Source: Roseicyclus marinus (GTDB lineage: Bacteria; Pseudomonadota; Alphaproteobacteria; Rhodobacterales; Rhodobacteraceae). From it: DNA of 64,000 bases. The position numbers and the translations under genes are program-made. The DNA lies in assembly GCF_036322625.1 (NCBI RefSeq), contig NZ_AP027266.1, forward strand, positions 809,001-873,000, in the 5' to 3' direction. Below, piece after piece: positions 45,014-62,190 of the stretch (position 1 is its first letter; every line of letters begins with the position of its first letter). Below the pieces are notes generated by a model. It searched no databases. It worked only from the letters and a program-made list of their open reading frames with translations, and was not told the origin of the DNA.

Positions 45014-45082
45014 AAATTACGTTGTTGAACGATATTGCAGTTTGCTCCTAATTTCCAGCGGGTTTCGGGGAAAGGGGTGCCT

Positions 45083-45778
45083 GTGGAGGGACCGTTCGCG
45101 ACCGCTTTCGGCCTGCTGCTGGCAGCCGATCCGGTGCTGATGCAGATCATCGGCCTGTCGTTGCGCGTGACGCTGACGGCGGTGTTGATCGCCTGCCTGA
45201 TCGGTCTGCCGCTCGGGGCGGCGCTGGCCTTGGCACGGTTTCCCGGCCGGGGCGCGGTCATTGTCCTGTTCAACGCGCTGATGGGTCTGCCGCCCGTGGT
45301 GGCGGGTCTGATCGTCTACCTGATGCTGTCGCGCTCGGGGCCACTGGGCGATCTGGGGCTGCTGTTCACGCCCGAGGCGATGATCCTTGCGCAGGTCGTG
45401 CTGATCCTGCCCATCGTCGTGTCGCTCACGCGGTCGGTGGTCGAGGATATCTGGGCCGAATACCGCGAACAGTTGCAGAGCCTGGGCGCGGGTCGCCTGC
45501 GGGCAGTGCCGACGCTTTTGTGGGATGGTCGGGTCAGTCTGCTGACCGGGGTTCTGGCGGGGTTTGGCCGCGCCAGTGCCGAGGTGGGGGCGGTTCTGGT
45601 CGTGGGCGGCAATATCGCGGGCCATACCCGCACCATGACGACGGCGATCACGCTGGAGACCAACCGGGGCAACCTGGGCCTTGCGGTGGCTTTGGGGATC
45701 ATCCTGCTTGCGCTGACCCTGACGCTGAACGCGGCGGCCTGGGGGGCGGGGCAATGGGCAAGGGGGCGGCTTGGATGA
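45083..45778 (+). CDS. tupB: Tungstate ABC transporter permease
   Basis: About 231 residues with five to six hydrophobic helices. LSLRVTLTAVLIACLIGLPLGAALALARF opens it, and the inner-membrane EAA-type loop reads REQLQSLGAGRLRAVPTLLWDGRVSLLTGVLAGFGRASAEVGA (key part LQSLGAGRLRA). This matches the TupB/WtpB permease family. The start is uncertain: GTG at 45083 has GAAAGG at 7 bp; GTG at 45077 and TTG at 45035 are in frame. Its 3' end overlaps the ATPase gene by 4 bp. Confidence 0.85.
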   Translation: MEGPFATAFGLLLAADPVLMQIIGLSLRVTLTAVLIACLIGLPLGAALALARFPGRGAVIVLFNALMGLPPVVAGLIVYLMLSRSGPLGDLGLLFTPEAMILAQVVLILPIVVSLTRSVVEDIWAEYREQLQSLGAGRLRAVPTLLWDGRVSLLTGVLAGFGRASAEVGAVLVVGGNIAGHTRTMTTAITLETNRGNLGLAVALGIILLALTLTLNAAAWGAGQWARGRLG

Positions 45779-46506
45779 CGCATCTGCGCGCGCTTGTGCC
45801 GTCGATCCTGCCGCTCCGGCTCGAGGGGGTGGGCTATGCCGTGGGCGGCAAGCCCCTGTTGTCGGATGTGTCCTTGACGGTGGAACCGGGGCGGCGGCTG
45901 GTCGTGCTGGGCTCGAACGGGGCGGGCAAGAGCCTGCTCTTGCGGCTGTGCCACGGGTTGATCGCGCCGACCTCGGGCCGGTGTCTCTGGGCGGATGGAT
46001 CGCCCCGCCCAGAGGCGCAGGCGATGGTGTTCCAGCGCCCGATCCTGCTGCGCCGGAGCGTGGCGGCCAATATCGAGTATCCGCTGGCCCTGCGCGGCCT
46101 GTCGCAAGCCGACCGGCGGCAGGCGCTGGCGCGCACGATCGAGCGTTTCGGGCTGGGCGCGATGGCCGACCGGCCCGCGCGGCTGTTGTCGGGGGGCGAA
46201 CAGCAGCGGCTGGCGCTGGCGCGGGCCTGGGCGATGCGGCCCGAGGTCCTGTTTCTGGACGAGCCGACATCGGCGCTCGACCCATCGGCCACGCGGATCA
46301 TCGAGGAGATGATCGAGAGCTTTTCGGCCGAGGGCATCACCATCGTGCTGACCACGCACAACCTGGGTCAGGCGCGTCGCCTTGCCGAGGATGTGGCCTT
46401 TCTCCATCGCGGTCGGCTGACCGAACAGGGGGCTGCCGCCACCTTTTTCGCAGGGCCGAAAACCCCCGAGGCCCGCGCATTCCTTGCGGGCGATCTGATC
46501 TGGTAG
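45775..46506 (+). CDS. tupC: Tungstate ABC transporter ATPase
   Basis: 243 residues with a single ABC ATPase domain: Walker A GSNGAGKS, signature LLSGGEQQRLALARAW, Walker B VLFLDEPTSALD and switch His in TTHNLGQARRL. It pairs with TupB and TupA. The ATG overlaps the tupB stop (ATGA), so the subunits are made together. The domain lacks the C-terminal MOP extension of ModC, in keeping with TupC. Confidence 0.88.
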   Translation: MTHLRALVPSILPLRLEGVGYAVGGKPLLSDVSLTVEPGRRLVVLGSNGAGKSLLLRLCHGLIAPTSGRCLWADGSPRPEAQAMVFQRPILLRRSVAANIEYPLALRGLSQADRRQALARTIERFGLGAMADRPARLLSGGEQQRLALARAWAMRPEVLFLDEPTSALDPSATRIIEEMIESFSAEGITIVLTTHNLGQARRLAEDVAFLHRGRLTEQGAAATFFAGPKTPEARAFLAGDLIW

Positions 46507-46525
46507 ACAACGGGAGAGAGTTACC

Positions 46526-47341
46526 ATGACACCGACGCGTCGTTCGGCCCTGATGGGCGTTGCGTCCAGCCTTGCCCTGCTGGCGGCACTGCCTGCGGCG
46601 GCACAGGATTTCATCACCGTCGCCTCGACCACCTCGACCGAGAATTCGGGGCTGTTCGGGCATATCCTGCCGATCTTTCAGGCCGAGACCGGGATCGAGG
46701 TGCGTGTCGTGTCCCAGGGCACCGGGCAGGCGCTTGAAACCGGGCGGCGCGGCGATGCGGATGTGGTCTTCGTCCATGCGCGCGCGCAGGAAGAGACCTT
46801 TGTCGCCGAAGGCTACGGCGTGCAGCGCTTCGACGTGATGTACAACGATTTCGTCGTCGTCGGCCCGTCCGATGATCCGGCGGGCGTGCGCGCGACCGAC
46901 AGCGCCGCCGGTGCCATGGCCGCGATTGCCGAGGCCGGGGCCTCCTTTGCCTCGCGCGGGGATGACAGCGGCACCCATGTGGCCGAACAGGGTCTGTGGG
47001 CCGCCGCCGGGATCGAACCTGCGGGGGAATGGTATCTGTCGACCGGTTCGGGCATGGGCGCGACGCTCAACACCGCGGCGCAGGTTCCCGCCTATGCGCT
47101 GACCGACCGGGGCACCTGGTTGTCCTTTGCCAACCGTGGCCCGCTCGAGATCGTGTCCGAGGGCGATCCGGTGCTGTTCAACCCCTATGGCATCATCTTG
47201 GTCAATCCCGAGCGCCATGCCCATGTGAAGGCTGATCTGGGTCAGGCCTTCATCGACTGGATCGTCTCGCCCGACGGGCAGGCCGCCATCGCGAGCTTCC
47301 AGGTGGGTGGCGAGCAGCTGTTCTTTCCCTCTGCACAGTGA
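46526..47341 (+). CDS. tupA: Tungstate-binding periplasmic protein
   Basis: 271 residues with a signal peptide ending AAAQD. The mature start VASTTSTENSGLFGHILP has the TTST oxyanion-binding motif of TupA, and FASRGDDSGTH, then LSTGSGMGATLN complete the site (RGDDSGT is conserved). TupA binds tungstate with very high affinity and selects it against molybdate. That suggests the formate dehydrogenase encoded nearby uses tungsten. GGGAGAG precedes the ATG. Confidence 0.9.
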   Translation: MTPTRRSALMGVASSLALLAALPAAAQDFITVASTTSTENSGLFGHILPIFQAETGIEVRVVSQGTGQALETGRRGDADVVFVHARAQEETFVAEGYGVQRFDVMYNDFVVVGPSDDPAGVRATDSAAGAMAAIAEAGASFASRGDDSGTHVAEQGLWAAAGIEPAGEWYLSTGSGMGATLNTAAQVPAYALTDRGTWLSFANRGPLEIVSEGDPVLFNPYGIILVNPERHAHVKADLGQAFIDWIVSPDGQAAIASFQVGGEQLFFPSAQ

Positions 47342-48384: not shown

Positions 48385-50322
48385 ATGTCCGCACCGAATG
48401 CGCCAAGTCCTGCAGGCCATCAGCAGGAACAATTCCTAAAGGTCCTGTCCCGCGACGAGGCGGAGGCCGCTTTCATGGCCGCGCTCTGCCCGCAGCCCTT
48501 GGGCGTGGAGGAGGTCGCGCTCGAGGCGCTGCTGGGGAGGGTGCTTGCGCGCGACATCGCCGCCCCGGTCGATGCCCCGCCCTTTGACCGGGCGGTGGTC
48601 GATGGATTTGCTTTGCGCGCCGCCGATCTGTTCGAGGCCTCCGAGGCGGAGCCGGTGCGGTTGCGCCTGAACCCGGAGGTGATCCATTGCGGCACCGCGC
48701 CCGCGCTGCCGGTCACCCCCGGCACCGCCACGCCCATCGCCACGGGCGGACCCATCCCCCGTGGGGCCGATGCCGTGGTGATGATCGAACATACCGAGCC
48801 CGAGGGTAACGGGATCGCCGTTGCCCGTGCGGTGGCACCGGGCAGTTTCATCGGCTTTGCAGGGTCCGACATCGCGCGGGGACAGACGCTGTTGCGCAGG
48901 GGCGTGGTGATCGGGGCGCGCGAGGTGGCGATGCTGGCCGCCGTGGGCCTTGACCGCGCGCCGGTCTGGCGCAGGCCGCGGGTTGCGGTCCTGTCGACGG
49001 GTGACGAGCTGGTGCGGCCCGGCGATCCGTTGCGCCCGGCAGGGGTTTACGATTCGAACGGCCCGGTGATCGTCGCGGCGCTGGCCGAGAATGGCTGTGA
49101 TGCGGTGCATCTGGGTTCCATCCCCGATGACGAGGCGCGGTTGACTGAAGCGGTCCGCGCGGCCTTTGCTGCCCATGATGCGCTGATCCTGTCGGGCGGC
49201 ACGTCCAAGGGTGCGGGCGATCTGACGACCAAGGTCATCGCGGGGCTTGGCGCGCCGGGGATCGTGGCGCATGGCGTGGCGCTCAAGCCCGGAAAGCCGC
49301 TCTGCCTTGCGGTTTGTGACGGCAAGCCGGTGGCGGTGCTGCCGGGGTTTCCGACATCGGCGATGTTCACTCTGCACGAGATGGTGGCGCCCGCGCTGCG
49401 GATCATGGCGGGGCTGCCGCCCCGGGGGGCGGCCCGGATCGAGGCTGTGCTGCCCCAGCGCCTTGGCTCGGAACTGGGTCGGACGGAATTCACCATGGTC
49501 GCGCTGACCGAGGGGCCGGACGGGCCGGTGGCCCATCCGGTCGGCAAGGGATCGGGCGCGGTCACGGCCTTTGCGCAGGCCGACGGGTTCCTGACGGTGC
49601 CGGCGCTGGTCGACAGCCTGCCCCCCGGCACGCGGGCCGAGGTGACGCTGTTCGGGTCCGGTGTCGCCGCGCCCCGGTTGGCGGTGATCGGCAGCCATTG
49701 CCTGGGTCTTGATGCGGTGGTCGGGCATCTGGTCGAACGGGGCATGACGGCGCGCATTCTGGCGACCGGATCGCAGGGCGGGTTGGCGGCGCTGGCCCGG
49801 CGGGAATGCGATATCGCCCCGATCCACCTGTTCGATCCCGCCACCGACCGCTTCAACACGCCCTATCTTGCCCAAGGGATGCGGCTGATCCCCGGCTGGC
49901 GGCGGATGCAGGGTCTGGTTTTTCGCGCAGGTGACGGGCGGATCGAGGGGAAGGGCGTGGCCGAGGCGCTGGCCAGCCTGCTCGCCGATCCCGAGGCGAT
50001 CATGGTCAACCGCAATCAGGGCGCGGGCACGCGCGTGCTGATCGACCGGCTGCTGTCGGGGACAAGGCCGCAGGGCTACTGGAACCAGCCCAATTCGCAC
50101 AATGCCGTCGCCGCCGCCGTGGCGCAGGGGCGCGCGGATTGGGGCGTGGCGATCCGCCCGGCCGCCGAGGCGCTGGGTCTGGGTTTCCTGCCGGTGGCCG
50201 AGGAACATTACGATTTCGCCGTCTGGCAGGACCCTCGCGATGCCGCGGCGCTGGAGGCGTTCGAGGCGGCGCTGGGCGAAAGCGGGCAGGCGCTGCGCGC
50301 GCTGGGCTTCGATCCGGGCTGA
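48385..50322 (+). CDS. moeA: MoeA fused to a PBP-like domain (molybdopterin cofactor synthesis)
   Basis: 645 residues. Residues ~15-410 are a full MoeA: VVDGFALRA (Asp73), ATGGPIPRGADAVVMIEHTE (key part IPRGADAVVM), STGDELVRPGDP, SGGTSKGAGDLT and LPGFPTSAMFT. MoeA inserts Mo or W into adenylylated molybdopterin. Residues ~430-645 are a periplasmic-binding-protein-like domain (VIGSHCLGLDAVVGHL, NRNQGAGTRVLIDRLLSG, AVAQGRADWGVAI), possibly presenting the metal oxyanion or sensing it. This fusion is known in bacteria and archaea. It follows the degenerate MoeA gene closely. Confidence 0.88.
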   Translation: MSAPNAPSPAGHQQEQFLKVLSRDEAEAAFMAALCPQPLGVEEVALEALLGRVLARDIAAPVDAPPFDRAVVDGFALRAADLFEASEAEPVRLRLNPEVIHCGTAPALPVTPGTATPIATGGPIPRGADAVVMIEHTEPEGNGIAVARAVAPGSFIGFAGSDIARGQTLLRRGVVIGAREVAMLAAVGLDRAPVWRRPRVAVLSTGDELVRPGDPLRPAGVYDSNGPVIVAALAENGCDAVHLGSIPDDEARLTEAVRAAFAAHDALILSGGTSKGAGDLTTKVIAGLGAPGIVAHGVALKPGKPLCLAVCDGKPVAVLPGFPTSAMFTLHEMVAPALRIMAGLPPRGAARIEAVLPQRLGSELGRTEFTMVALTEGPDGPVAHPVGKGSGAVTAFAQADGFLTVPALVDSLPPGTRAEVTLFGSGVAAPRLAVIGSHCLGLDAVVGHLVERGMTARILATGSQGGLAALARRECDIAPIHLFDPATDRFNTPYLAQGMRLIPGWRRMQGLVFRAGDGRIEGKGVAEALASLLADPEAIMVNRNQGAGTRVLIDRLLSGTRPQGYWNQPNSHNAVAAAVAQGRADWGVAIRPAAEALGLGFLPVAEEHYDFAVWQDPRDAAALEAFEAALGESGQALRALGFDPG

Positions 50323-50960: not shown

Positions 50961-52913
50961 TTACCCGGTCGGCCCCTCGTGCGGGTCGAAACCTGCGATC
51001 ACCACCTCCTTGGTCCGGCAATCGTCGCACATGGTCAAAAGCCGTTTGCGGGTGGCGCCATCCTCGCCGGTGAACATCCAGTGGCCCTCGAGCCGCTCCA
51101 TCACGCGGCGGATGGACGAACCGGTGCCGAACCCCTTGCCGCAGGAGGTGCAGCAGAAGGGTTCTTCTTCCTTGAGGATGCGCTTGGGGTTTGCCCATGC
51201 GGCGAAATCCATCTGGGGCGTGATGGAAATGGCCTCTTCGGGACAGGTCACCGTGCAGATCCCGCATTGCACGCAAGCGCTTTCGGTGAAGCGCAGCATC
51301 GGCTTGTCGGGGTTGTCGCCAAGCGCGCCTGTGGGGCAGGCCCCGACGCAGGCAAGGCAGAGCGTGCAGCTGTCGAGGTTGAGCGACACGGTGCCGAAGG
51401 GCGCGCCCTTGGGCAGGTCGATCCGCTCGGTCGGGCGGGGCGCGGTGCGGTTCAGCTCTTCCATCGCCAGCGTCAACAGCCCGCGCTTGTCCTCGGGCGG
51501 CAGGAAGGAGGAGCGGGTGGGGCGCAGCGGCTGGGCCGGATGCCACAGCGCGGTTTCGAGCGCGTCGGGATCATCGGTCTGGATCAGCGCGCAGGCCTGG
51601 GCGGCGTGGCCGGTCGCCTCGCAGATAGCGGCCATCAGGTCGAGCGTCGTGGCCAGCCCATCGAGCGGATGGGCTGGGCGATCCTTGGCCAGAACGCGCA
51701 CGCCGCCCGCGCCCCATGCCATGGCTGCGGCCATGATCTCGGGGCCGATCTGGCTCGGTTCATTCACCTGAACCGGGATGACATGGGCGGGCAGGCCGCG
51801 CCCGAAGCGCGCTGCCGCATCGATCAGGGGCGCGCCATGGACTTCGTCGTGGAAGAGGATCACGGGGGCGCTGCGCCCGCCCGCATCCACCCATGCCGCA
51901 AGGCCCGCGCGCAGGCGGTCGGCCAAGCTGCCCACGGCAGGCAGCGCATAGGAAGCAGCCCCCGTCGGGCAGGCCGCCGCGCATTGCCCGCAGCCCGCGC
52001 AGATCGCGGGGTCGATGGCCACGGTGTCGCCCGCAGGCAGGATCGCACCGGTGGGACACAGGTCGAGGCAGCGGGTGCAGCCGGTCTTGGTGTTGCGCGA
52101 ATGGGCGCAGAGACCCGCTTCGAAATCGATGTATTTGGGCTTGTCGAAGATGCCGACCATCTGGCCCGCCTCGGCCACCAGGGCTGCAACGGCTGCGGGG
52201 TCACGCGGATCGGCGCGCAGATAGCCCGGGCGCGTGTGGTGGAAGAGCGGCTGCCCCCCCGTCAGGTCCAGCACCAGATCGCAGCGCGACACCGCGCCAT
52301 CACGGGCCGGGCCGAAATCAAGCCTTGCGCGGGAGGACGGGGCGGGCGCGGCATAGGCATCGACCGTCAGTTCGAAGGCGCCCATATGCCCCTTGGCCCG
52401 CGCGATCCGGCCCTGAAGCACAGGCCATGTCGTCTGGCGTGGCGGCGCGACATCGGCGCCGGGCAAAAGAAGCACGGTCAGATCCAGCATGCCCGACAAT
52501 TGCCGTGCGGCGTCGATCGCCACCTCGTCGCGGCCCAGAACGAGGGCGATGCCGTTGCTTTCGAGGCTGACGGTTTCGAAGGAGGAGCCGGGCATTTCCG
52601 CCATGGCCAGAAGGGCCGCCATCTTGGGTGCGGCCTTGGCCCCGTCGTCCGACCAGCCTGCGGTTTCGCGGATATTGGCAAAGCGCAGGGTCCCTGCATA
52701 TCCCGCATCCTCGGCCACTTCGGAGAAGAGCGGCGCTTCTTGCGTGCAGGCGACCGTGATGGCGGCAAAGCTGCCGAGCGCCTGCCGGAAATTGTCGAGC
52801 TGGGCGCGACAAAGCTGGCTGGCCGGTTTGCCGGTTGCCCCCAACGTGTCGCCGTCGAGGGTCATGGTCGCTTCGCAGGTGCAGATCAGGCGGGTTTCAT
52901 TCTGGTCTTGCAT
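50961..52913 (-). CDS. 4Fe-4S dicluster-type protein, formate dehydrogenase associated
   Basis: 650 residues. Cys motifs form several clusters: CTRCLDLCPTGAI with CAGCGQCAAACPTGA in the middle, and CTLCLACVGACPTGAL with CVQCGICTVTCPEEAI near the C-terminus; a further CCTSCGKGFG and CDDCRTKE look like a zinc or iron site. The N-terminal region has single Cys residues in LICTCEATM and LCRAQ. It is likely soluble and electron-transferring or assembly-related. It lies between the cofactor genes and the accessory set on the opposite strand, its promoter facing the BirA-like gene. The partner is not known. Confidence 0.82.
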   Translation of the reverse strand: MQDQNETRLICTCEATMTLDGDTLGATGKPASQLCRAQLDNFRQALGSFAAITVACTQEAPLFSEVAEDAGYAGTLRFANIRETAGWSDDGAKAAPKMAALLAMAEMPGSSFETVSLESNGIALVLGRDEVAIDAARQLSGMLDLTVLLLPGADVAPPRQTTWPVLQGRIARAKGHMGAFELTVDAYAAPAPSSRARLDFGPARDGAVSRCDLVLDLTGGQPLFHHTRPGYLRADPRDPAAVAALVAEAGQMVGIFDKPKYIDFEAGLCAHSRNTKTGCTRCLDLCPTGAILPAGDTVAIDPAICAGCGQCAAACPTGAASYALPAVGSLADRLRAGLAAWVDAGGRSAPVILFHDEVHGAPLIDAAARFGRGLPAHVIPVQVNEPSQIGPEIMAAAMAWGAGGVRVLAKDRPAHPLDGLATTLDLMAAICEATGHAAQACALIQTDDPDALETALWHPAQPLRPTRSSFLPPEDKRGLLTLAMEELNRTAPRPTERIDLPKGAPFGTVSLNLDSCTLCLACVGACPTGALGDNPDKPMLRFTESACVQCGICTVTCPEEAISITPQMDFAAWANPKRILKEEEPFCCTSCGKGFGTGSSIRRVMERLEGHWMFTGEDGATRKRLLTMCDDCRTKEVVIAGFDPHEGPTG

Positions 52914-53005: not shown

Positions 53006-53743
53006 ATGACAATGGTCCGGGAGGACAATCTTGCCGCGCCGAAGGTGGTTTTGCCGCCGCCATTCACCTTGCATCGCACCGAGGGGCGCGATGTGCTGGC
53101 CGAAACGGTCGCGCTTGCACCGTCCGAAGGGGCGGGGACACTGGTGCTGCACCAATCGCCGGGGCTTTTGGCTTTCGCGGTGGTTCTGGAACCCGAACAA
53201 GAACTGGTCGAGGCGCAGCTTGCGTTCCTGCTGGGGATGACGGCCGTGGGCGATGCGCTGGCAGCCCATTGCCCGCCTGACCGCTCGGTTCGGTTGAATT
53301 GGCCCGACGAGGTGCTCTTTGACGGGGCCCGCATCGGTGGCGGACGGTTTGCCATTGCGCCCGGCACCGCCGATGACGCCGTGCCCGACTGGATGGTCTT
53401 TGCCGCCGAACTGATCGCCGACCGCGACCATATCGCGGAGCCGGGTGCCTATCCCGACAGCACGTCGCTGTTGGAGGAAGGTTTCGATCCGGCCGAGGAT
53501 ATCGTGTCGACCTTCGCCTCCTACATGATGCTGTATTTCGACCGCTGGGCGCACGAAGGCTTTGCCGCCGTGTCGAACCGGTTCCTGATGCGCGTCGACC
53601 CGCCCCTGTTGCGCGGCGTGCGCCGGATCGAAGGGGACAGGATGCTGGAGATCACGCCGTCCGGCGGCGGACGCCGGATGGCCCCCTTGCGCGAGGCCTT
53701 GGCCGTTCAGGCATGGCGCGACGAGACGGGCCCCAGGCTGTGA
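53006..53743 (+). CDS. Biotin/lipoate ligase-like protein, catalytic residues absent
   Basis: 245 residues with the fold pattern of the BirA/LplA catalytic domain: QAQ-like helix (LVEAQLAFLLGMTAVGDALA), LNWPDEVLFDGARIGGG matching the KWPNDxxxxxxKLAG element, and a C-terminal helical end. The family's GRGRxGR loop reads EGAGTLVLHQ, the Lys of KWPN is Asn98 and the second Lys region is ARIGGG (108-113). So it looks unable to make biotinyl-AMP and may bind a different ligand. GGGAGGG lies before the ATG at 53006. It is the first gene of the accessory run before formate dehydrogenase. Confidence 0.75.
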   Translation: MTMVREDNLAAPKVVLPPPFTLHRTEGRDVLAETVALAPSEGAGTLVLHQSPGLLAFAVVLEPEQELVEAQLAFLLGMTAVGDALAAHCPPDRSVRLNWPDEVLFDGARIGGGRFAIAPGTADDAVPDWMVFAAELIADRDHIAEPGAYPDSTSLLEEGFDPAEDIVSTFASYMMLYFDRWAHEGFAAVSNRFLMRVDPPLLRGVRRIEGDRMLEITPSGGGRRMAPLREALAVQAWRDETGPRL

Positions 53744-54291
53744 CACGGCTGCCGCGCACGATCCGGCTGGACCCGTCGGACCGCCACATCTTTGCCCATG
53801 CCGCCGAACCCGGCGAATGGGCTGTGCCGGGCACCTTCCTGTTCTGGGGGCGCGCGCCGGACAGCCTGACCCGGAAGGAGGCGATCGCCTTTCGCTCGGG
53901 GTTTCTGGGCGTGGAGAGTTTCGGCCATTCGACGCTTGTCACCGTGCAGGAGGCCCGCCCCGAGGAGCGCGCCGCGATGGTCGAGGCGCTGGCGGATCAG
54001 CTGGTCGCGCAGCTTGGTGCGCCATCGCGCGACATCGCGCGGCCTGCTGCCGAACAGGAAGTGAGCCTGGCCGAAAGCCTGTGCGCCGATCACGGCATCG
54101 GAACGCTCATTGCGCTGCACCGCAAGCACGGCGAGGATGGCGAGATCCGCGAGCAGTTCCGCACCCTGCGCCCACGCGACGAAACGGCGTTCTCCGCCTC
54201 GCATCTGATGGGCCATGACCGGGCGTTTCAATTCTTCGAGGAAGAGACAGAGGATCACGTCGATCTGTTTCAGTTGAGGGGGCAGGACTGA
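53740..54291 (+). CDS. DUF6505-type accessory protein
   Basis: 183 residues, probably starting at GTG 53740, which overlaps the upstream stop; an ATG at 53713 is in frame. RTIRLDPSDRHIFAHAAEPGEWAVPGTFLF opens it (key part DRHIFAHAAEPGEWA), then WGRAPDSLTRKEAIAFRSGFLGVESFGHSTLVTV (key part FRSGFLGVESFG). No motif known to me points to an activity. It recurs in formate dehydrogenase clusters of Rhodobacterales and Rhizobiales to my recollection. The stop overlaps the next start (TGATG). Confidence 0.65.
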   Translation: MTRLPRTIRLDPSDRHIFAHAAEPGEWAVPGTFLFWGRAPDSLTRKEAIAFRSGFLGVESFGHSTLVTVQEARPEERAAMVEALADQLVAQLGAPSRDIARPAAEQEVSLAESLCADHGIGTLIALHRKHGEDGEIREQFRTLRPRDETAFSASHLMGHDRAFQFFEEETEDHVDLFQLRGQD

Positions 54292-55280
54292 TGCCGGAAT
54301 TCTGGGTCGCCTCGGGGCATCATCTGGCGCGGCTGGACCGTGCGGGGCGCATGGTTGTGACGGACGAGCTGTTGCTGGCCTGGCTGGCCCGCCCGGAAAT
54401 CGTGCCGCCGCCCGAAGCTTGCGCGACAGAGCGCGCCGTTCATGCGCGTCTCAGGGCCGCTCCGCGTTCTGCGGTGCCATCCCTTGAACTGGCCGCGATG
54501 AAGGATCCGGATGCGCGCGAGAACTGGCAGTTCTTCCTGACGCTGCGCGACCGTCTGCTGCAGGCGGGAACGATCGAGGAAGGCTATGCCGCGATCATGC
54601 GCGAGGGGCTGCGCCTGCCCGTCGTGTTCCTGTCGCAGCTCGTGCAGCTGATCTTGCGCAACGCGCTGGATGGATGCGACGACCCGCAGGTGTTGCGCGC
54701 CGCCGAATGCCTGTTCCGGCCGCAGCGGGCGCATGTGAAGGACGGCATGGTCCTGATGGCAGACGAAGAGCTTGTGGCGCTGTTCGAGGCGGATATGCAT
54801 GCATCCCCGCTCATGGCCATGTTCTCGGGCGGGATCGACAGTCTGGACGTGTTGGGGGGCGGCAACGAATGGACCTATTGGTCGCGGTCGGACGCCCATA
54901 CGATGATCTACAATTTCGGGGGTGATCCCGAGGCGCGGCGCGGGATGGCAAAGGCGCTGGAGGCCTTCATCCGGCATATGCTGGGGGTGGAGGTGAGCGT
55001 CTCGCCGCAGACGCGCGTCGACGACGTGGACCTGCGGTGGTATGTGGGTCTTGATCCGAACGGCACGGCCATTGGGGATGCGCTCTGGCATGGTCGCCCG
55101 CTCCCGGCCAGCCTGATCGGGGTGTTCCGGCTCGATTTCGCCGACCCGTCCAAGACGCGCGAAGATGTGGCGGGGCATCCGGTCTGGCTTTTGTTGGGCC
55201 TTGGGCAGGACGGGGCCGTGCGGATCAAGCCGCAGAACCTTCTGGCGGGCCTGCCATTGGCCGAACCGCATCTGCACTGA
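54291..55280 (+). CDS. DUF6352-type accessory protein
   Basis: 329 residues. MPEFWVASGHHLARLDRAGRMVVTDELLLAWLARPE is the conserved opening (key part FWVASGHHL), followed by helical stretches, ANECLFRPQR-like RAAECLFRPQRAHVKDG, and NEWTYWSRSDAHTMIYNF with a HMLGVEVSVSP region. I see no nucleotide- or metal-binding motif that I can name. It sits between the DUF6505 and DUF3305 genes with one-base overlap upstream, so it is part of the same translated set. Function unknown; a structural helper for formate dehydrogenase is an inference from context. Confidence 0.65.
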   Translation: MPEFWVASGHHLARLDRAGRMVVTDELLLAWLARPEIVPPPEACATERAVHARLRAAPRSAVPSLELAAMKDPDARENWQFFLTLRDRLLQAGTIEEGYAAIMREGLRLPVVFLSQLVQLILRNALDGCDDPQVLRAAECLFRPQRAHVKDGMVLMADEELVALFEADMHASPLMAMFSGGIDSLDVLGGGNEWTYWSRSDAHTMIYNFGGDPEARRGMAKALEAFIRHMLGVEVSVSPQTRVDDVDLRWYVGLDPNGTAIGDALWHGRPLPASLIGVFRLDFADPSKTREDVAGHPVWLLLGLGQDGAVRIKPQNLLAGLPLAEPHLH

Positions 55281-55295
55281 AACGGAGGGGATGAC

Positions 55296-55835
55296 ATGCC
55301 AAGGGAGATCATCCGCATCGGCGTGGTGGCGGAACGTCGACCGCCCGTGACCCGGTGGAGCACCGGGGAATTGCGGCCGCTTCTGGTTCTGCCGGTCGAA
55401 CCCGCGACGCCGCCGGGCACGTGCCTGGGTACCGATGGCGGGGTCGAGACCTGGTATCTGGGCGGGCGCGACATGGTGCTGTGGTCCGGGGATGCCGGTC
55501 ATCATCGCGACAACCTGATGTCGGGGCGTCCGTCCGTCTGGGTCGCCTTGCGCGGAACCGACCCGGCGCGGGCGGAGGTTCTGGCCGTCACGGTCGATCC
55601 CTACGAGGGCGAGGGGCTGGCCTCGGACCCCGAGCTGATCGTCGATGCGGTGCCGATGCCCGATCCTGTCGCGCGCGCGGTGGCGGCCTTTGCCGATCGG
55701 TATTTCGTCGAGATGCCCTTCAAGAAGCGCAAGCGCCTGCCGGTCGATCCGAATGCGGTCGCGGCGCGCGCGCCCCGCGTGCTGCAGCCCGAGGACAAAT
55801 GGGAGAATCGCAAGGGCCGGAGGTCGGACCCATGA
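55296..55835 (+). CDS. DUF3305 protein
   Basis: 179 residues. IIRIGVVAERRPPVTRWSTGELRPLLVLP at the start (key part VAERRPPVTRW) and MVLWSGDAGHHRDNLMSGRPSVWVAL (key part HRDNL) are DUF3305 features, and the C-terminal half is basic with FKKRKRLPVDPNAVAAR. GGAGGGGATGAC precedes the ATG. The stop overlaps the DUF3306 start (ATGA). The family is known mainly as a formate dehydrogenase neighbour. Confidence 0.75.
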   Translation: MPREIIRIGVVAERRPPVTRWSTGELRPLLVLPVEPATPPGTCLGTDGGVETWYLGGRDMVLWSGDAGHHRDNLMSGRPSVWVALRGTDPARAEVLAVTVDPYEGEGLASDPELIVDAVPMPDPVARAVAAFADRYFVEMPFKKRKRLPVDPNAVAARAPRVLQPEDKWENRKGRRSDP

Positions 55836-56503
55836 GCGGGGACGAGCCCGAGGGTTTCCTGGGCCGTTGGTCGCGCATCAAGCGGACCGCCGCCCGGTCG
55901 CAACAGGAGCCGGAGCCGGAACTCGAAGCTCTGCCCGATGCGGAGCCTGATGACGCCGAATCCCATCCGGACCCGGAGCCTGCGACCGAGCAAGCCCCTC
56001 CGACGTTGTCCGAAGAGGAATTGGCGGCATTGCCCCGGATCGAGGATCTGGTTCCCGGCAGCGACATCCGCCCCTTTCTGCGCCCCGGCGTTCCACGGTC
56101 GCTCAAGAACGCCGCCTTGCGCCGCATGTGGATGCTGACGCCCGTGATCCGCGATCATCAGGACCCGGCCGTCGACTATGCCTGGGATTGGAACACCCCC
56201 GGTGGGGTTCCCGGCGATGGCCTTGCCCCATCCCCGGAGCGCACGGCGCAGATGCTCAAATCGCTCCTGTCGCCGCAGCGGGATGAACCCGAGCCCGAGG
56301 CTGCCACACAAGCCGTGGCAGAAGCGGAGGACGCGCCGGAAACCGTCGATGAAAAGTCTCCCAAAGCCAAGATGATAGCGCCGACATCCGGTGCGCCGTC
56401 ATCGGTCGGGACCAGCGATGAAGAAGGGGCAAACGCGCCCGATTCTGTCGCTGAACCCGATCCACCTGTGCGCAGGCGTCATGGATCGGCACTGCCGGGA
56501 TAG
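55832..56503 (+). CDS. DUF3306 protein
   Basis: 223 residues. The N-terminal FLGRWSRIKRTA, an acidic Pro/Glu-rich stretch, and a conserved core LPRIEDLVPGSDIRPFLRPGVP, SLKNAALRRMWMLTPVIRDHQDPAVDYAWDWN (key part RRMWMLTPVIRDHQD) are DUF3306 signatures. The tail is long, acidic and disordered-looking. It is always beside DUF3305 in such clusters, as here. A physical partner of DUF3305 is inferred. It is followed by a 189-bp gap holding the next promoter. Confidence 0.77.
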   Translation: MSGDEPEGFLGRWSRIKRTAARSQQEPEPELEALPDAEPDDAESHPDPEPATEQAPPTLSEEELAALPRIEDLVPGSDIRPFLRPGVPRSLKNAALRRMWMLTPVIRDHQDPAVDYAWDWNTPGGVPGDGLAPSPERTAQMLKSLLSPQRDEPEPEAATQAVAEAEDAPETVDEKSPKAKMIAPTSGAPSSVGTSDEEGANAPDSVAEPDPPVRRRHGSALPG

Positions 56504-56599: not shown

Positions 56600-56692
56600 A
56601 ATTTCGCTTGACCAAAGGCCTCCTCTGACGCTCCTCTAGGGTAGGGTACGCGACCGTATGCAATGGGCGCGTGTGGGAAGAGAACAGGACCT

Positions 56693-57298
56693 ATGGAAAC
56701 CAGCCAGCCGGGCAACCGGCCCGCTAGTGATGTGGAAAACGCAGCGCGAGGCGACATGTATCGCTTCGTTGCGACCCTGCTTGCTTCTGCGCCTTCTCAA
56801 GAGATTCTGGACGGAACCGCGGGTTTGGCGGGGGACGGAACCGCCCTTGGGCAGGCCGTGACGGCATTGGCGCATGCGGCGCGCGCGACTGACGCGGCAA
56901 AGGTGGAGCGGGAATTCTTCCAGCTTTTCATCGGCGTGGGGCGTGGCGAGCTGTTGCCCTATGCCAGTTTCTACCAGACCGGTTTCTTGAACGAGCGCCC
57001 GCTCGCCGAGGTCAGGGGCGACCTGTCCCGGCTGGGGATCGCGCGTGCCGAAGGGCGCTACGAGCCCGAAGATCATATCGCGCTTTTGTTCGAGGTGATG
57101 GGTGATCTCGCCTCGGGGACGCTGTCCGCACCGGACAAGGCTCAGTCGGAGTTCTTCGGGCGGCACATCGAACCTTGGGCCGCGCAATTCTTCGACGATC
57201 TGGCGATCGCGCCAAGTGCATCTTTCTACCGAGCAGTCGCCGAGGTTGGCCGATTGCTCGTGGATATCGAGGCGCGAGCCTTCTCGCTCGCCGCCTGA
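56693..57298 (+). CDS. TorD/DmsD-family chaperone for formate dehydrogenase
   Basis: 201 residues. The helical TorD/NarJ fold is recognisable: RGDMYRFVATLLASAPS, VEREFFQLFIGVGRGELLPYASFYQTGFLNERPLAEVRGDL (key part GELLPYASFYQTGFL) and EPEDHIALLFEVMGDLA. Such chaperones bind the Tat signal and guide cofactor loading of molybdo/tungsto-enzymes before export. The ATG at 56693 follows AGGACCT. It is the first gene of the run to fdhC. Confidence 0.85.
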   Translation: METSQPGNRPASDVENAARGDMYRFVATLLASAPSQEILDGTAGLAGDGTALGQAVTALAHAARATDAAKVEREFFQLFIGVGRGELLPYASFYQTGFLNERPLAEVRGDLSRLGIARAEGRYEPEDHIALLFEVMGDLASGTLSAPDKAQSEFFGRHIEPWAAQFFDDLAIAPSASFYRAVAEVGRLLVDIEARAFSLAA

Positions 57299-57386: not shown

Positions 57387-57602
57387 ATGACCAGCAAGAC
57401 ACCCACACCGATCAGCCGGCGTGCCTTTCTCGGGACAACGGCTGTCGGCGCAACCGCATCCGTTGCGCTCGGCACCGGATCGGCCCGTCCCGCGCTTGCG
57501 CAGGAAACTGGCGATGAGCGCACGCGCGGCCGCTACCAGGCGACCGAACATGTCGAAACCTACTACCGGACCAACCGCTACTATCCTCGGGGGACCAACT
57601 GA
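57387..57602 (+). CDS. Formate dehydrogenase region Tat-target small protein
   Basis: 71 residues. A twin-arginine signal, PISRRAFLGTTAVGATASVAL, ends near LAQE; the short mature part contains GRYQATEHVETYYRTNRYYPRG, matching the small family known by its position beside formate dehydrogenase. It may be an export partner or escort. AAAGGGG precedes the ATG at 57387; the ATG at 57327 is in frame but weaker. Its stop overlaps the fdhA start (TGATG). Confidence 0.8.
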   Translation: MTSKTPTPISRRAFLGTTAVGATASVALGTGSARPALAQETGDERTRGRYQATEHVETYYRTNRYYPRGTN

Positions 57603-60574
57603 TGCTCGTTAAGCGCAGGAATGGTGACACCGCGTCGACCGGGCGCCTGTCACAAATGGCGGCAGCCGTTTCGGCCCGCCCGCTCGATCGCCGCAGCTTT
57701 CTGCGGGCATCGGGTCTGACCGTCGGCGGGCTTGCCGCACTTGGCGCCATGGGCGCAGGCATGACGCGCCGCGTCGAGGCCGCCGAAGGCTTCACCGACA
57801 TGTCCCAGCCGATCGAGATCCGCACCAACATCTGCACCCATTGCTCGGTGGGCTGCACGGTGAAGGCCGAGGTCCAGAACGGCGTCTGGGTCGGCCAGGA
57901 ACCGGCCTACAACAGCCCGATCAACCGCGGCACCCATTGCGCCAAGGGCGCATCGGTGCGCGAGCTCGTTCACGGCGACCGCCGGGTCAAATACCCGATG
58001 AAGAAGGTCGGCGGCGAATGGCAGCGCATCAGCTGGGATCAGGCTCTGACCGAGATCAGCGAAAAGATGACCGAGATCCGGGGCCGCTCGGGCGCGGATT
58101 CCGTCTATCTGCTGGGCTCCGCCAAGTTCTCGAACGAAGGCGCCTACCTGTTCCGCAAGTTCGCGGCATTCTGGGGCACCAACAACGTCGATCACCAGGC
58201 GCGCATCTGTCACTCCACCACCGTGGCGGGCGTTGCGAACACCTGGGGCTACGGCGCCATGACCAACAGCTACAACGACATCCGCAACGCAAAGACCGTC
58301 ATCTTCATGGGGTCGAACGCGGCCGAGGCGCATCCCGTCTCGCTCCAGCACATCCTTGAAGGCAAGGAAACGCAGCGCGCGAATGTCATCGTCTTCGATC
58401 CGCGCTTCACCCGGACCGCGGCGCATGCGACCGAATATGTCCGCTTCCGTCCCGGCACCGACATCGCCGTGATGTACGGGATGCTGTGGCACATCTTCGA
58501 GAACGGCTGGGAAGACCGCGAATACATCGCAAGCCGCGTCTGGGGCATGGATCAGATCCGCGAAGAAACGCGGTCCTATCCGCCGGAAGTCGTGGAGCGG
58601 ATCACCGGCATCGACGGCGAGACCCTGCGTCGCACCGCCGAGAAATTCGCCAAGGAGCGTCCCTCGACCTTCATCTGGTGCATGGGCGGCACGCAGCACA
58701 CCGTCGGCACCGCCAACGTGCGGATGTACAACAACCTGCTGCTGGCCACCGGCAACGTGGGCGGCGAGGGCAATGGTGCCAACATCTTCCGCGGTCACTG
58801 CAACGTGCAGGGCGCGACCGACTTCGGTCTCGATGTGGGCAACCTGCCTTGCTACTACGGCCTGGGTGCGGGTGCATGGCGGCACTGGTCGCGCGTCTGG
58901 GAAGTGCCTTACGAATATTTCGAAAGCCGCTTCGACGCTGTTCCGGCCAAGGGTGGGCGCGATGCCCGGACGCCAGCGCAGAACATGGAAGTGGCGGGCA
59001 TCACCTCGACCCGCTGGTTCGATGCCGTGACGCTCGACGCCGAGGAAGTCGACCAGCTCGACAACATCAAGGCGATGCTCGTCTTCGGTCATGGCGGCAA
59101 CACCGTGCCCCGGATGCAGGATGCACAGCGCGGCATGAACGCGCTTGACCTGCTGGTCGTGGCCGACCCGCATCCGACGACCTTTGCGGCGCTGCACTCG
59201 CGGACCGACAACACCTATCTTCTGCCGATCTGCACGCAGTTCGAATGCTCGGGCTCGCGCACGGCGTCGAACCGCTCGGTGCAGTGGGGCGAGAAGGTGG
59301 TCGATCCGATCTTCGAATCCGACAACGATTACGCGGTGATCTACGGTCTCGCGCAGCGTCTCGGCTTCGCGGACGAGATGTTCAAGAACTACGAGATGGT
59401 TCAGGGCAAGTTCGGCATGGAACCGACACCGGAATCCGTGCTGCGCGAGATCAACCGGGGTGGCTGGTCCACCGGCTACACCGGTCAGAGCCCCGAGCGT
59501 CTCAAGGCGCATATGGCCAACCAGCAGCATTTCGACCTGGTCACGCTGCGTGCCCTGCCCGACGCGCCCGAGGAAATCCGCGGCGACTACTACGGTCTGC
59601 CGTGGCCCTGCTGGGGCACGCCCGAATTGCGGCATCCCGGCACGCATATCCTCTACAACACGAACCTGCCCCCGATGGAGGGTGGCGGCGCGTTCCGCCC
59701 GCGTTTCGGTCTGGACCGCGACGGCGAGACGCTCCTTGCGGAAGGCAGCTGGCCCGCCGGCTCGGAGATCGAGGACGGCTATCCCCAGTTCACCTACGGT
59801 GTTCTGCAGCAGCTTGGCTGGGATGCGGATCTGACGCCGCAGGAGCTGGCCACGATCCGGCGCATCGGGAACAACGATCCCGAAGCGATGGCTGCCGTTT
59901 CCTGGTCGCTTGACCTGTCGGGCGGTATCCAGCGCGTCGCCCTGATGCATGGCTGTGTGCCCTTCGGCAACGGCAAGGCCCGCGCGGTTGCATGGAACCT
60001 GCCCGACCCGATCCCGGTCCACCGCGAGCCGATCTATTCGCCGCGCACCGATCTGGTCGCAGAATACCCGACGCGCGAGGATGGCCGTCAGCAGCGGATG
60101 CCGAACATCGGCCTGACGTTGCAGACCGCGAACCTGGAAAACCGCGTGGCGGAACAATTCCCGATCATCCTGACCTCCGGCCGTCTGGTCGAATACGAGG
60201 GCGGTGGCGAGGAAACCCGGTCGAACCCGTGGCTTGCGGAATTGCAGCAGGACATGTTCGTCGAGATCAACCCTGCCGACGCATCGTCGCGCGGGATCGT
60301 CGATGGCGGTTGGGTTTGGGTGACCGGCCCCGAGGGCGGATCGCGGGCGCGCGTCAAGGCGCTTGTGACCGAACGCGTGGGGCAGGGCGTGGCCTTCATG
60401 CCCTTCCACTTCGCGGGTTGGTTCCAGGGCGAAGACCAGCGGGGCAACTACCCCGAAGGCACCGACCCCATCGTCCTTGGCGAATCCGTCAACGTCATCA
60501 CCACCTATGGCTACGATCCCGTCACCGGGATGCACGAGGGCAAGGTCACCCTTTGCCAGATCGCCGCGGCCTGA
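57602..60574 (+). CDS. fdhA: Formate dehydrogenase catalytic (alpha) subunit, Cys type
   Basis: 990 residues. A Tat signal, LDRRSFLRASGLTVGGL, covers residues 28-55. One [4Fe-4S] cluster is bound by C78, C81, C85 and C113 (NICTHCSVGC...THCAKG). The metal ligand is in ARICHSTTVAG: Cys at about 203 (codon TGT at 58208-58210) followed by the essential His, where E. coli FdnG has Sec. The bis-MGD domains follow (GSNAAEAHPV, GGTQHTVGTANVR, TSGRLVEYEGGGEETRSN). It oxidises formate to CO2 in the periplasm. The nearby tupBCA implies tungsten. Confidence 0.95.
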   Translation: MLVKRRNGDTASTGRLSQMAAAVSARPLDRRSFLRASGLTVGGLAALGAMGAGMTRRVEAAEGFTDMSQPIEIRTNICTHCSVGCTVKAEVQNGVWVGQEPAYNSPINRGTHCAKGASVRELVHGDRRVKYPMKKVGGEWQRISWDQALTEISEKMTEIRGRSGADSVYLLGSAKFSNEGAYLFRKFAAFWGTNNVDHQARICHSTTVAGVANTWGYGAMTNSYNDIRNAKTVIFMGSNAAEAHPVSLQHILEGKETQRANVIVFDPRFTRTAAHATEYVRFRPGTDIAVMYGMLWHIFENGWEDREYIASRVWGMDQIREETRSYPPEVVERITGIDGETLRRTAEKFAKERPSTFIWCMGGTQHTVGTANVRMYNNLLLATGNVGGEGNGANIFRGHCNVQGATDFGLDVGNLPCYYGLGAGAWRHWSRVWEVPYEYFESRFDAVPAKGGRDARTPAQNMEVAGITSTRWFDAVTLDAEEVDQLDNIKAMLVFGHGGNTVPRMQDAQRGMNALDLLVVADPHPTTFAALHSRTDNTYLLPICTQFECSGSRTASNRSVQWGEKVVDPIFESDNDYAVIYGLAQRLGFADEMFKNYEMVQGKFGMEPTPESVLREINRGGWSTGYTGQSPERLKAHMANQQHFDLVTLRALPDAPEEIRGDYYGLPWPCWGTPELRHPGTHILYNTNLPPMEGGGAFRPRFGLDRDGETLLAEGSWPAGSEIEDGYPQFTYGVLQQLGWDADLTPQELATIRRIGNNDPEAMAAVSWSLDLSGGIQRVALMHGCVPFGNGKARAVAWNLPDPIPVHREPIYSPRTDLVAEYPTREDGRQQRMPNIGLTLQTANLENRVAEQFPIILTSGRLVEYEGGGEETRSNPWLAELQQDMFVEINPADASSRGIVDGGWVWVTGPEGGSRARVKALVTERVGQGVAFMPFHFAGWFQGEDQRGNYPEGTDPIVLGESVNVITTYGYDPVTGMHEGKVTLCQIAAA

Positions 60575-60589
60575 AGGAGCATATAGCAA

Positions 60590-61186
60590 ATGGCACGTCT
60601 CAAGTTCCTGTGCGACGCCGACCGCTGCATCGAATGCAACGCCTGCGTCACCGCCTGCAAGAACGAGCATGAGGTTCCGTGGGGCATCAATCGCCGCCGC
60701 GTGGTCACCATCAACGATGGCCTTCCGGGCGAACGCTCGGTCTCCATGGCCTGCATGCACTGCACCGATGCGCCCTGCGCCTCGGTCTGCCCGGTCGATT
60801 GTTTCTACACGACCGATGATGCCGTGGTCCTTCACAACAAGGACACCTGCATCGGCTGCGGCTATTGCTCCTACGCCTGCCCCTTCGGCGCACCCCAGTA
60901 TCCGCAAACCGCCAACTTCGGCACGCGCGGCAAGATGGACAAGTGCACCTATTGCTCGGGCGGCCCGGAGCCGGACATGAGCGAAGTGGAATACATCAAG
61001 TATGGCTCCAACCGCCTGGCGGAAGGCAAGCTGCCGCTCTGCGCGGAGATGTGCTCCACCAAGTCGCTTCTGGCCGGTGACGGCGACATCATCGCGGAAA
61101 TCTACCGCGAGCGTGTCGTGACGCGCGGCTATGGTTCGGGTGCCTGGGGTTGGCGCACGGCCTATGGCGAAACCGTGACGGTCTGA
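60590..61186 (+). CDS. fdhB: Formate dehydrogenase iron-sulfur (beta) subunit
   Basis: 198 residues with Cys motifs for four [4Fe-4S] clusters: CIECNACVTACKNEH, CMHCTDAPCASVCPVD, CIGCGYCSYACPFGAP and CTYCSGGP...CAEMC. It passes electrons from the alpha subunit to the cytochrome b subunit. It lacks the C-terminal membrane anchor helix of FdnH, so it depends on the gamma subunit for attachment. AAGGAGC precedes the ATG; it follows fdhA by 15 bp. Confidence 0.95.
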   Translation: MARLKFLCDADRCIECNACVTACKNEHEVPWGINRRRVVTINDGLPGERSVSMACMHCTDAPCASVCPVDCFYTTDDAVVLHNKDTCIGCGYCSYACPFGAPQYPQTANFGTRGKMDKCTYCSGGPEPDMSEVEYIKYGSNRLAEGKLPLCAEMCSTKSLLAGDGDIIAEIYRERVVTRGYGSGAWGWRTAYGETVTV

Positions 61187-61197: not shown

Positions 61198-62190
61198 ATG
61201 GCACAGCAAATCCACCGTCTGGTCGTTGCGTTGGGGCTTGCCCTGACGCTGGGCCTGTTCGCGCCGCAGGCCATGGCGCAGGTCAATCCGACCGCGCAAT
61301 CGGTCACCGAGGAAGCGCTCTTCAACGCACTGGGCAACGGCGGCAACGTCACCGGGCGCATCACCATTCCGGATGCACATGCCGGACAGCTGATCGCACC
61401 GGAAAACCGGGCTTGGGCTGCGCTTCAGGGCGACACGCTCCATACGATCTCGATCTGGGCCGTGATCGGCATGGTCGCGCTCTTGACGCTGTTCTACCTC
61501 GTGCGGGGCAAGATCCGCATCGACAGCGGAATGTCGGGCCGCAAGATCCTGCGCTTCAACGCGATCGAGCGTTTCGCGCATTGGACGCTCGCGTCGACCT
61601 TCATCATCCTCGCTCTGTCCGGGCTCAACATCATCATCGGACGCACGGTTCTGCTTCCGATGCTTGGTGAGGGGGCGTTTGGCACGCTGAGCGCCTGGGG
61701 CAAGGTCGCGCACAACTTCCTTGCCTGGCCCTTCATGGTCGCGCTCGTCATGATCCTGGTTCTCTGGGTGATCCACAACATCCCCAACAAGGTGGACCTC
61801 GAATGGATCAAGCAGGGCGGTGGCCTTCTGAAGAAGGGCGTTCACCCGCCGGCCAAGAAGTTCAACGCCGGGCAGAAGATCATCTTCTGGGCGGTGGTCC
61901 TCGGTGGCGCGGCGCTGTCTTTCACCGGCGTCATGCTCCTGTTCCCCAACGAGGTCGCGAGCTTTGCCGATTGGCAGTTCTACCAGACGATCCACGCGCT
62001 TACCGCAGCCGTCCTGTCGGCGATCATCATCGCGCACATCTACATCGGCTCGGTCGGCATGGAAGGTGCGTTCGACGCCATGGGCTCGGGTGAGGTCGAC
62101 GAGAACTGGGCCAAGGAGCATCATTCGCTCTGGGTCAAGGAAGTGAAGGGCGAAGCTGCCTCCGAAGCACGCCCGCACCCGGCCGAGTGA
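61198..62190 (+). CDS. fdhC: Formate dehydrogenase cytochrome b556 (gamma) subunit
   Basis: 330 residues. A signal peptide (AMAQ) is followed by a periplasmic segment and about four transmembrane helices. Haem-ligand His residues lie in FAHWTLASTF, VAHNFLAWPF, IHALTAAVL and IIIAHIYIG. The C-terminal ENWAKEHHSLWVKEVKGE is typical of the FdoI/FdnI family. It anchors the enzyme and reduces the quinone pool. Eleven bp separate it from fdhB. Confidence 0.93.
   Translation: MAQQIHRLVVALGLALTLGLFAPQAMAQVNPTAQSVTEEALFNALGNGGNVTGRITIPDAHAGQLIAPENRAWAALQGDTLHTISIWAVIGMVALLTLFYLVRGKIRIDSGMSGRKILRFNAIERFAHWTLASTFIILALSGLNIIIGRTVLLPMLGEGAFGTLSAWGKVAHNFLAWPFMVALVMILVLWVIHNIPNKVDLEWIKQGGGLLKKGVHPPAKKFNAGQKIIFWAVVLGGAALSFTGVMLLFPNEVASFADWQFYQTIHALTAAVLSAIIIAHIYIGSVGMEGAFDAMGSGEVDENWAKEHHSLWVKEVKGEAASEARPHPAE

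Follow-up and report, generated by a model that had tools for sequence, protein, structure and literature searches.

The window, by which we mean the whole stretch of 64,000 nucleotides, contains five plus-strand frames that are all open between positions 53006 and 56503, which confirms the five-gene arrangement of the original prediction. They encode a protein with a BPL/LplA/LipB domain (BPL-like; 53006..53743), a DUF6505 protein (53740..54291), a DUF6352 protein (54291..55280), a DUF3305 protein (55296..55835) and a DUF3306 protein (55832..56503). All five exceed the curated cut-offs of their Pfam families, with E-values of 4e-52 for PF16917, 8e-58 for PF20115, 8e-47 for PF19879, 4e-32 for PF11749 and 4e-19 for PF11748; DUF6505, DUF6352, DUF3305 and DUF3306 score 194.9, 160.5, 111.7 and 70.1 bits against gathering cut-offs of 23.9-25. 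In the window sequence, the genes are spaced by -4, -1, +15 and -4 bp, i.e. the BPL-like and DUF6505 genes share a 4-bp overlap, DUF6505 and DUF6352 overlap by 1 bp, a 15-bp gap separates DUF6352 from DUF3305, and DUF3305 again overlaps DUF3306 by 4 bp. The DUF6505 gene begins with GTG, and a same-frame ATG at 53713 is also possible. The DUF3306 protein is acidic (pI 4.4) and its conservation is weak except for an N-terminal and a central block.

A gene for a TorD-like chaperone (56663..57298, plus strand) has its first start at 56663, 159 bp downstream of DUF3306. Its product exceeds the cut-off of the broader family PF02613, but not that of the TorD equivalog model NF003442 (54.3 versus 132 bits). 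Further downstream on the same strand, a small Tat-signal peptide (57387..57602; best match TIGR02811 with 40.6 bits, below the cut-off of 48.45) is followed by the catalytic subunit FdhA (57602..60574), the iron-sulfur subunit FdhB (60590..61186), homologous genes of which are annotated as 'FDH3 subunit beta', and the cytochrome b subunit FdhC (61198..62190; an ATG start was chosen, the first start of the frame being TTG at 61150). We use FDH3 for the class of formate dehydrogenase (FDH) that combines a Cys active site and a Tat-exported FdhA with FdhB and a cytochrome b FdhC. Both FDH3-type features are present in the window FdhA, namely the active-site Cys in RICHS and the twin-arginine motif RRSFL, and FdhC scores 153 bits against the cut-off of 115.85 for the FDH3 gamma subunit model TIGR01583. 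Against TIGR01591, formate dehydrogenase alpha, FdhA reaches 448.6 bits and stays below the cut-off of 666.25. Across all fetched regions, a script detected the Cys motif in 41 of 44 fdhA-profile hits; a second look revealed the Cys also in L273, while L271 carries a CHA variant and L270 shows no motif.

Upstream of the five genes are TupABC-like ABC transporter genes (45035..47341, plus strand; permease at 45035-45778, ATPase at about 45817-46506, binding protein at 46526-47341), MoeA-type genes and DUF2478. The binding protein finds its best match in the TupA model and the permease its second-best match in the TupB model, both below cut-off, and the match of the ATPase is unspecific. Tungsten rather than molybdenum as the metal of the enzyme is a putative assignment based on these adjoining transporter genes. 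A helix-turn-helix plus PBP_like gene adjoins the transporter genes, and a related gene is present in 22 of 53 loci with full flanks, which would suit a regulatory or sensing module, with proteins that respond to W/Mo, formate or the state of the cofactor and regulate the expression of fdh. Such a role is rather unlikely for the five proteins, none of which matches a DNA-binding or signalling family in Pfam or NCBIfam, and the regulator-like gene is separate from them.

The five genes had been placed between W/Mo cofactor genes and a TorD-fdh operon. Both flanks are indeed present, but a divergent minus-strand gene for a 4Fe-4S polyferredoxin-like protein (50961..52913) intervenes. This gene, omitted from the original prediction, belongs to the set; of 42 fetched fdhA loci, 36 contain it, as do all 53 full-flank relatives. 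The order BPL-like, DUF6505, DUF6352, DUF3305, DUF3306, TorD, Tat peptide, FdhA, FdhC cannot be explained by chance because it is identical in 49 of these 53 relatives, which were drawn from the best 80 of at least 573 DUF6352 relatives, so that near kin are over-represented. Fusions of module families were flagged in none of the best 80 of these at least 573 relatives, and none was seen in 11 loci with long open frames that were inspected by eye.

The distribution of the families was analysed in two samples, comprising 142 genomes of the same class and 279 genomes of the same phylum, with several genomes shared (the positives G000, G022 and G028). FdhA searches used E <= 1e-100, and no more than the 5 (class) or 3 (phylum) highest-ranking candidates of each genome were scored; counts for DUF3306 and PF16917 refer to the class sample. 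DUF3305 is present in 36/36 FDH3 genomes and in 0/243 others of the phylum sample (n=279; Fisher 4e-46, relatedness ignored), and together with DUF3306 in 22/22 FDH3 genomes of the class sample (n=142), plus one exception, G125. FDH3 accompanies DUF6352 in 19 of 20 carriers of the class sample and in 14 of 14 of the phylum sample; for DUF6505 above cut-off, the respective numbers are 12 of 13 and 20 of 20. PF16917 is found in 94 of the 142 class-sample genomes, and ordinary BirA also matches this family; a threshold of 120 bits, set with the scores already known, retains 15 genomes of this sample, all with FDH3. Thirty genomes without FDH3 were picked, except for G125, among genomes already known to lack DUF3305. 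Twenty-two of these 30 carry an FDH alpha subunit above the TIGR01591 cut-off, and only G125 of the 22 has DUF3305. Thus, the gene set is not tied to FDH in general. Its tie to one FDH class, FDH3, is strong: as expected from the proposed co-occurrence with Cys-type fdhA, the families are not widespread without fdhA in either sample. The three exceptions are G125 (98% completeness), which contains DUF3305, DUF3306, FdhD-type, MobA-type and 4Fe-4S genes and no FDH3-class fdhA; G007 (93% complete, 810 contigs), which has DUF6352 without FDH3; and G119, which has a DUF6505 copy with a stop and likewise no FDH3.

The five genes do adjoin in the window, as the idea of one unit implies, but they fall into two parts, a core pair and an optional triple. 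The DUF3305-DUF3306 pair is present with essentially every FDH3; DUF3306 follows DUF3305 within -40 to 300 nt in 39 of 42 pairs, and 33 pairs overlap when script-chosen starts are used. The triple of BPL-like, DUF6505 and DUF6352 is optional and mainly a feature of the own class. It is dispensable because DUF6352 is absent from 3/22 class-sample and 22/36 phylum-sample FDH3 genomes, and DUF6505 from 10/22 and 16/36, respectively. Among fetched loci having DUF6352 and DUF3305 on one strand, the triple adjoins the pair in 8 of 16, the 60 fetched regions representing a selection of the positive genomes. Frequent adjacency to the core pair, together with absence from many FDH3 genomes, would also be expected if the triple were a passenger, maintained via linkage and with a role unrelated to FDH. 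This is very unlikely, since DUF6352 stays with FDH3 in eight genomes in which it is unlinked to fdhA. The two genes are 0.18-2.8 Mb apart on one contig in G028, G157, G332 and G360. In the other four they lie on different contigs, with a minimum distance of about 27 kb in G135 and of 90 kb in G051, G105 and G128. In five of the eight, the one or two scanned neighbours of DUF6352 are unrelated genes, and in G105 and G135 the unlinked DUF6352 still adjoins other module genes. G001, G064 and G087 are outside this set; both contigs of G001 end inside fdhB and probably adjoin.

The BPL-like protein had been described as BirA-like, which holds for its domain family, PF16917, matched by all 28 aligned members, but not for its catalytic motifs. 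The GRGRxGR-type adenylate-binding loop of biotin protein ligase is present as a strict pattern in one member (L235), and 14 of 16 loop positions are gapped in the other 27, including the window protein. A looser pattern also matches L244, though its loop is gapped too. The Lys of KWPND, the catalytic Lys of the ligase, is found in L235 only; the 27 others lack a Lys at this position, which is Asn in the window protein, where LNWPDE replaces KWPND. As judged from its sequence, the BPL-like protein is therefore a pseudo-ligase and not a normal biotin ligase. In a PDB profile search, the family is related by alignment (E 4e-86) to 3bfm, a 'biotin protein ligase-like protein of unknown function', and to biotin ligases. 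BirA and 3bfm share the domain family with the module protein, a relationship from which one might expect a working ligase that transfers biotin, lipoate or a different acid onto one of the module proteins. Such an activity is highly improbable, because all 27 members that adjoin other module genes have lost both the adenylate loop and the lysine, no module gene is present in the 13 kb fetched for L235, the one aligned member carrying both motifs, and a separate BirA of the host shows both motifs when read by eye. The family would add another case of a ligase fold that is used without its catalytic parts.

A confident AlphaFold2 model of DUF6352 and a confident model of DUF3305 gave no Foldseek match in the PDB at E <= 0.001; for DUF3305, chains of 2qsd recur weakly (E 0.81-2.1). 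The DUF3305 family profile found no relatives among PDB sequences. Using the shorter DUF3305 of L274 as the query of a sequence search gave no matches either. One PDB match of the DUF6352 profile (E 0.24) and two of the DUF6505 profile (E 0.14 and 0.25) were taken as chance, and the match of the DUF3306 profile to a REST corepressor 3 chain (E 0.0019) and a further one at E 0.64 are presumed to be low-complexity noise. Profile comparisons of DUF6505 with the BPL-like family, of DUF6505 with DUF3305 and of DUF6352 with DUF6505 detected no homology.

By simple hydropathy and pattern searches, the five window proteins lack both a strongly hydrophobic 19-residue span and a twin-arginine motif. The latter is carried by FdhA and the small peptide, so that the five most likely act before export. 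Strict co-occurrence with FDH3, and a divergent 4Fe-4S protein that could carry electrons, would be compatible with a place in the FDH3 complex as additional subunits, either structural or for electron transfer. This is unlikely for proteins that lack both export motif and hydrophobic span, while FdhA has a twin-arginine motif, and that match no redox-cofactor family in Pfam. From their association in a demonstrated module, we infer a helper function instead: the five genes probably encode cytoplasmic, FDH3-specific maturation factors for the catalytic subunit, which would act when the W/Mo cofactor is loaded, ahead of Tat export. The originally proposed tie to this FDH class is retained and the proposed complex is putative, but the five are not one uniform unit, the BirA-like protein is a pseudo-ligase, and the missed 4Fe-4S gene is added. 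FdhA would be supplied in the cytoplasm with W/Mo-bis-MGD and its iron-sulfur cofactors, and the TorD-like chaperone would meanwhile keep it from the Tat machinery. DUF3305 and DUF3306 may work as a pair between cofactor synthesis (MobA, FdhD) and the loading of apo-FdhA, a step to which the BPL-like protein, DUF6505 and DUF6352 would contribute as an optional extension. Among these, the BPL-like protein would serve for binding or as a scaffold and attach neither biotin nor lipoate. More tentatively, these proteins might constitute an undescribed cofactor-loading apparatus for one exported W/Mo FDH class, in which DUF3305-DUF3306 hands bis-MGD from MobA/FdhD to apo-FdhA, and which is extended, mainly in Alphaproteobacteria, by DUF6505, DUF6352 and a biotin ligase turned cofactor- or peptide-binding scaffold; the folds of DUF6352 and DUF3305 would then be new to structural biology.

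The system-specific chaperones NarJ, TorD and DmsD (REMPs) are likewise cytoplasmic helpers, each dedicated to one molybdoenzyme whose genes are next to its own. The window has a TorD-like gene, but the five proteins are assigned to different Pfam families, with no match to the TorD family in any of them. FdhD/FdhE and FdsC are FDH maturation factors that act on cofactor loading of FDH. Passages of PMC4464133 and PMC13396061 refer to such factors. The former reported in 2015 that DUF3305/DUF3306 are located upstream of dmsD-fdhGHI operons, in 60% of the dmsD-linked cases, so that both families and the type of operon next to them correspond to those in the window. Thus, the location of this pair beside fdh was already known; in our literature search, which covered subscription papers incompletely, no other paper with DUF3305/DUF3306 in an fdh context was found. 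Those passages call both proteins putative membrane proteins, whereas no hydrophobic span was found in the window proteins, and they do not mention the triple. Metal-dependent formate dehydrogenases are sought for CO2-to-formate conversion, and a 2026 paper names maturation of the alpha subunit as the major bottleneck when E. coli is used to produce a W-dependent FDH from a different class (PMC13396061). A gene set that two samples show almost exclusively together with one FDH class provides a direct candidate list of maturation factors for that class, and would assign functions to four uncharacterised Pfam families.

Different from FdhD, FdhE and FdsC, the five proteins follow FDH3 only, and the one Pfam or NCBIfam match to such factors is the DUF3305 half of the MobA-DUF3305 model. 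The window DUF3305, like three relatives, matches positions 221-377, the C-terminal part, of this NCBIfam model (NF011058; 59.7 bits versus a cut-off of 820); the fusion itself was not seen in the sampled genomes and is known here from the model only. MobA- and/or FdhD-cluster genes, with one member of each cluster checked by Pfam, adjoin the core pair in G051, G125, G128, G184, G199 and G345.

The five plus-strand genes of the original prediction were borne out by reading the sequence, both in location and in tight spacing. All score above their Pfam cut-offs and encode a BPL-like protein (PF16917; 53006-53743), DUF6505 (53740-54291), DUF6352 (54291-55280), DUF3305 (55296-55835) and DUF3306 (55832-56503), with successive spacings of -4, -1, +15 and -4 bp. 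On their 5' side lie TupABC-like genes, MoeA-type genes, DUF2478 and a divergent gene for a 4Fe-4S protein; on their 3' side follow a TorD-like chaperone, a small Tat peptide and fdhABC. FdhA has a cysteine at the active site and a twin-arginine motif, and its class is termed FDH3 here because the FdhB counterparts in homologous operons carry the name 'FDH3 subunit beta' in NCBI annotation. The host encodes a second formate dehydrogenase (FDH) alpha subunit of another class (G000:C1:1192776-1194818; 928 bits to TIGR01591).

Co-occurrence with fdhA had been proposed as a test of the prediction; run on two overlapping samples, it tied the families to fdhA and did not find them widespread without it. 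Among 279 Pseudomonadota genomes (phylum sample), fdhA is present in 36 and DUF3305 in the identical 36 (36/36 versus 0/243), and the 14 genomes with DUF6352 and the 20 with DUF6505 all fall within them. Among 142 alphaproteobacterial genomes from 140 genera (class sample), FDH3-class fdhA, called at E <= 1e-100 to the window fdhA, occurs in 22. DUF3305 and DUF3306 were each found in 23, namely all 22 plus G125, DUF6352 in 20 (19 with fdhA, plus G007), and DUF6505 above the cut-off in 13 (fdhA is present in 12 of them; the other is G119, where DUF6505 has an internal stop) and below it in a fourteenth, G091. Fisher tests of family versus fdhA co-occurrence gave 9e-11 to 4e-46, values that ignore relatedness and whose true weight is therefore smaller. 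Other FDHs are common where the five-gene set is absent: an alpha subunit above the TIGR01591 cut-off was detected in 22 of 30 FDH3-less genomes, which, G125 excepted, were chosen from genomes known beforehand to be without DUF3305 (23/31 including the host, whose second FDH passes). Only G125 among those 22 has DUF3305.

In G125, DUF3305, DUF3306, FdhD-type, MobA-type and 4Fe-4S genes are clustered without FDH3-class fdhA (locus L251), and two big adjacent frames resemble DNA-repair polymerase genes when read by eye. In G007, an assembly of 810 contigs with 7% contamination in which FDH3 was not detected, DUF6352 directly follows a TupA-cluster gene (L254).

The module genes occur on plasmids in several genera (L282, L283, L284), e.g. 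in Sinorhizobium meliloti LMB1 and Bradyrhizobium sp. 184, and 72,556 plasmid records hold DUF6352 on 10 and DUF6505 on 78. Among the best 80 of at least 573 relatives of the window DUF6352, the closest listed being from Roseibacterium persicicum (94% identity), 53 have full 10-kb flanks; fdhA is present in all 53 and the window gene order is kept in 49. The retention of DUF6352 with FDH3 even without linkage argues for a shared function. Eight such genomes were considered, leaving out G001 (whose two contigs probably adjoin), G064 and G087: both genes lie on one contig, 0.18-2.8 Mb apart, in G028, G157, G332 and G360, and on different contigs in G135 (at least about 27 kb) and in G051, G105 and G128 (90 kb or more), the latter distances being lower bounds from the distance to contig ends. 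Five of these genomes (G028, G051, G128, G157, G332) have only unrelated genes among the DUF6352 neighbours scanned; in G105 and G135 DUF6352 still adjoins other module genes.

The set has a two-part structure, a core pair (DUF3305 and DUF3306) and a triple (BPL-like, DUF6505 and DUF6352). In 60 fetched regions, with starts picked by script, same-strand genes were counted as adjacent at -40 to 300 nt. This applied to 39/42 DUF3305-DUF3306 pairs (overlapping in 33), 20/22 BPL-like-DUF6505 pairs and 15/15 DUF6505-DUF6352 pairs, and to only 8/16 DUF6352-DUF3305 pairs, across the junction. In the phylum sample, the host's own class accounts for 18/36 FDH3 genomes, 11/14 DUF6352 genomes and 17/20 DUF6505 genomes; in other classes the core pair often occurs without the triple, as in L274 and L275, where a 4Fe-4S gene adjoins the pair.

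For the BPL-like protein, active ligation is a rival explanation. In an alignment of 28 members, all 27 from regions with other module genes have 14 of 16 adenylate-loop positions gapped and lack the lysine at the KWPND position; the loop and this lysine are motifs of BirA. Both are present in the remaining member, L235 (G087), which has no module gene in the fetched 13 kb, and, read by eye, in the host's separate BirA. We therefore regard the module protein as a pseudo-ligase. A structure of the family (PDB 3bfm, 4e-86) is labelled 'of unknown function'.

AlphaFold2 predictions fed with family alignments gave confident models for DUF6352 (mean pLDDT 93.4, pTM 0.91) and DUF3305 (92.9, 0.79), and Foldseek found no PDB match for either at E <= 0.001; by this comparison alone, new folds are a possibility. 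The 18 invariant columns of the DUF6352 alignment, including E96, R136, E139, R143, Q145, D158, D245, K313, Q315 and N316, would suit a putative ligand or partner site.

Tat substrates like FdhA are folded and loaded with cofactor before export. Neither a strongly hydrophobic span nor a twin-arginine motif was found in the five window proteins, so they most likely reside in the cytoplasm and would act ahead of FdhA export. A MobA-DUF3305 fusion model is matched by the window DUF3305 over its DUF3305 part, and in six fetched genomes the core pair has MobA- and/or FdhD-cluster genes as neighbours. We lean towards a maturation role of the set at the cofactor-loading step over the rival readings of a regulatory function, further FDH subunits, passenger genes or active ligation. 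The TupABC-like genes in the window point only weakly to a tungsten enzyme: a TupA-like gene lies near the module in just 10/53 full-flank relatives.

According to a 2015 study (PMC4464133), DUF3305 and DUF3306 lie upstream of 60% of dmsD-linked fdhGHI operons. Within the literature searched, four points are new: that the set is almost perfectly tied to a single FDH class in both genome samples, that it falls into two parts, that the FDH-linked BPL-like proteins have lost their ligase motifs, and that DUF6352 and DUF3305 give confident predicted models without PDB match.

Several neighbouring genes recur. The 4Fe-4S polyferredoxin-like protein (50961-52913, minus strand), with extra CxxC pairs at its C-terminal end, has counterparts in 36/42 fetched fdhA loci and is encoded between DUF3306 and TorD in L274 and L275. 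A WD40-repeat and cytochrome c protein relative, whose 5' part (63535-64000, plus strand) runs past the window end, has relatives in 44/53 full-flank loci and is a candidate electron acceptor for the FDH. An Mrp/ApbC-type iron-sulfur carrier ATPase (62274-63365, plus strand) scores below model cut-offs; relatives lie directly 5' of the BPL-like gene in several fetched loci without DUF6352, e.g. L284. A short, weakly matching MoeA-like protein (47363-48379, plus strand) is encoded directly 5' of a full MoeA-type fusion protein at about 48448-50322. Beside the TupABC-like genes, a helix-turn-helix and PBP_like protein (44082-45047, minus strand), possibly a metal-oxyanion regulator, has relatives near the module in 22/53 full-flank loci.
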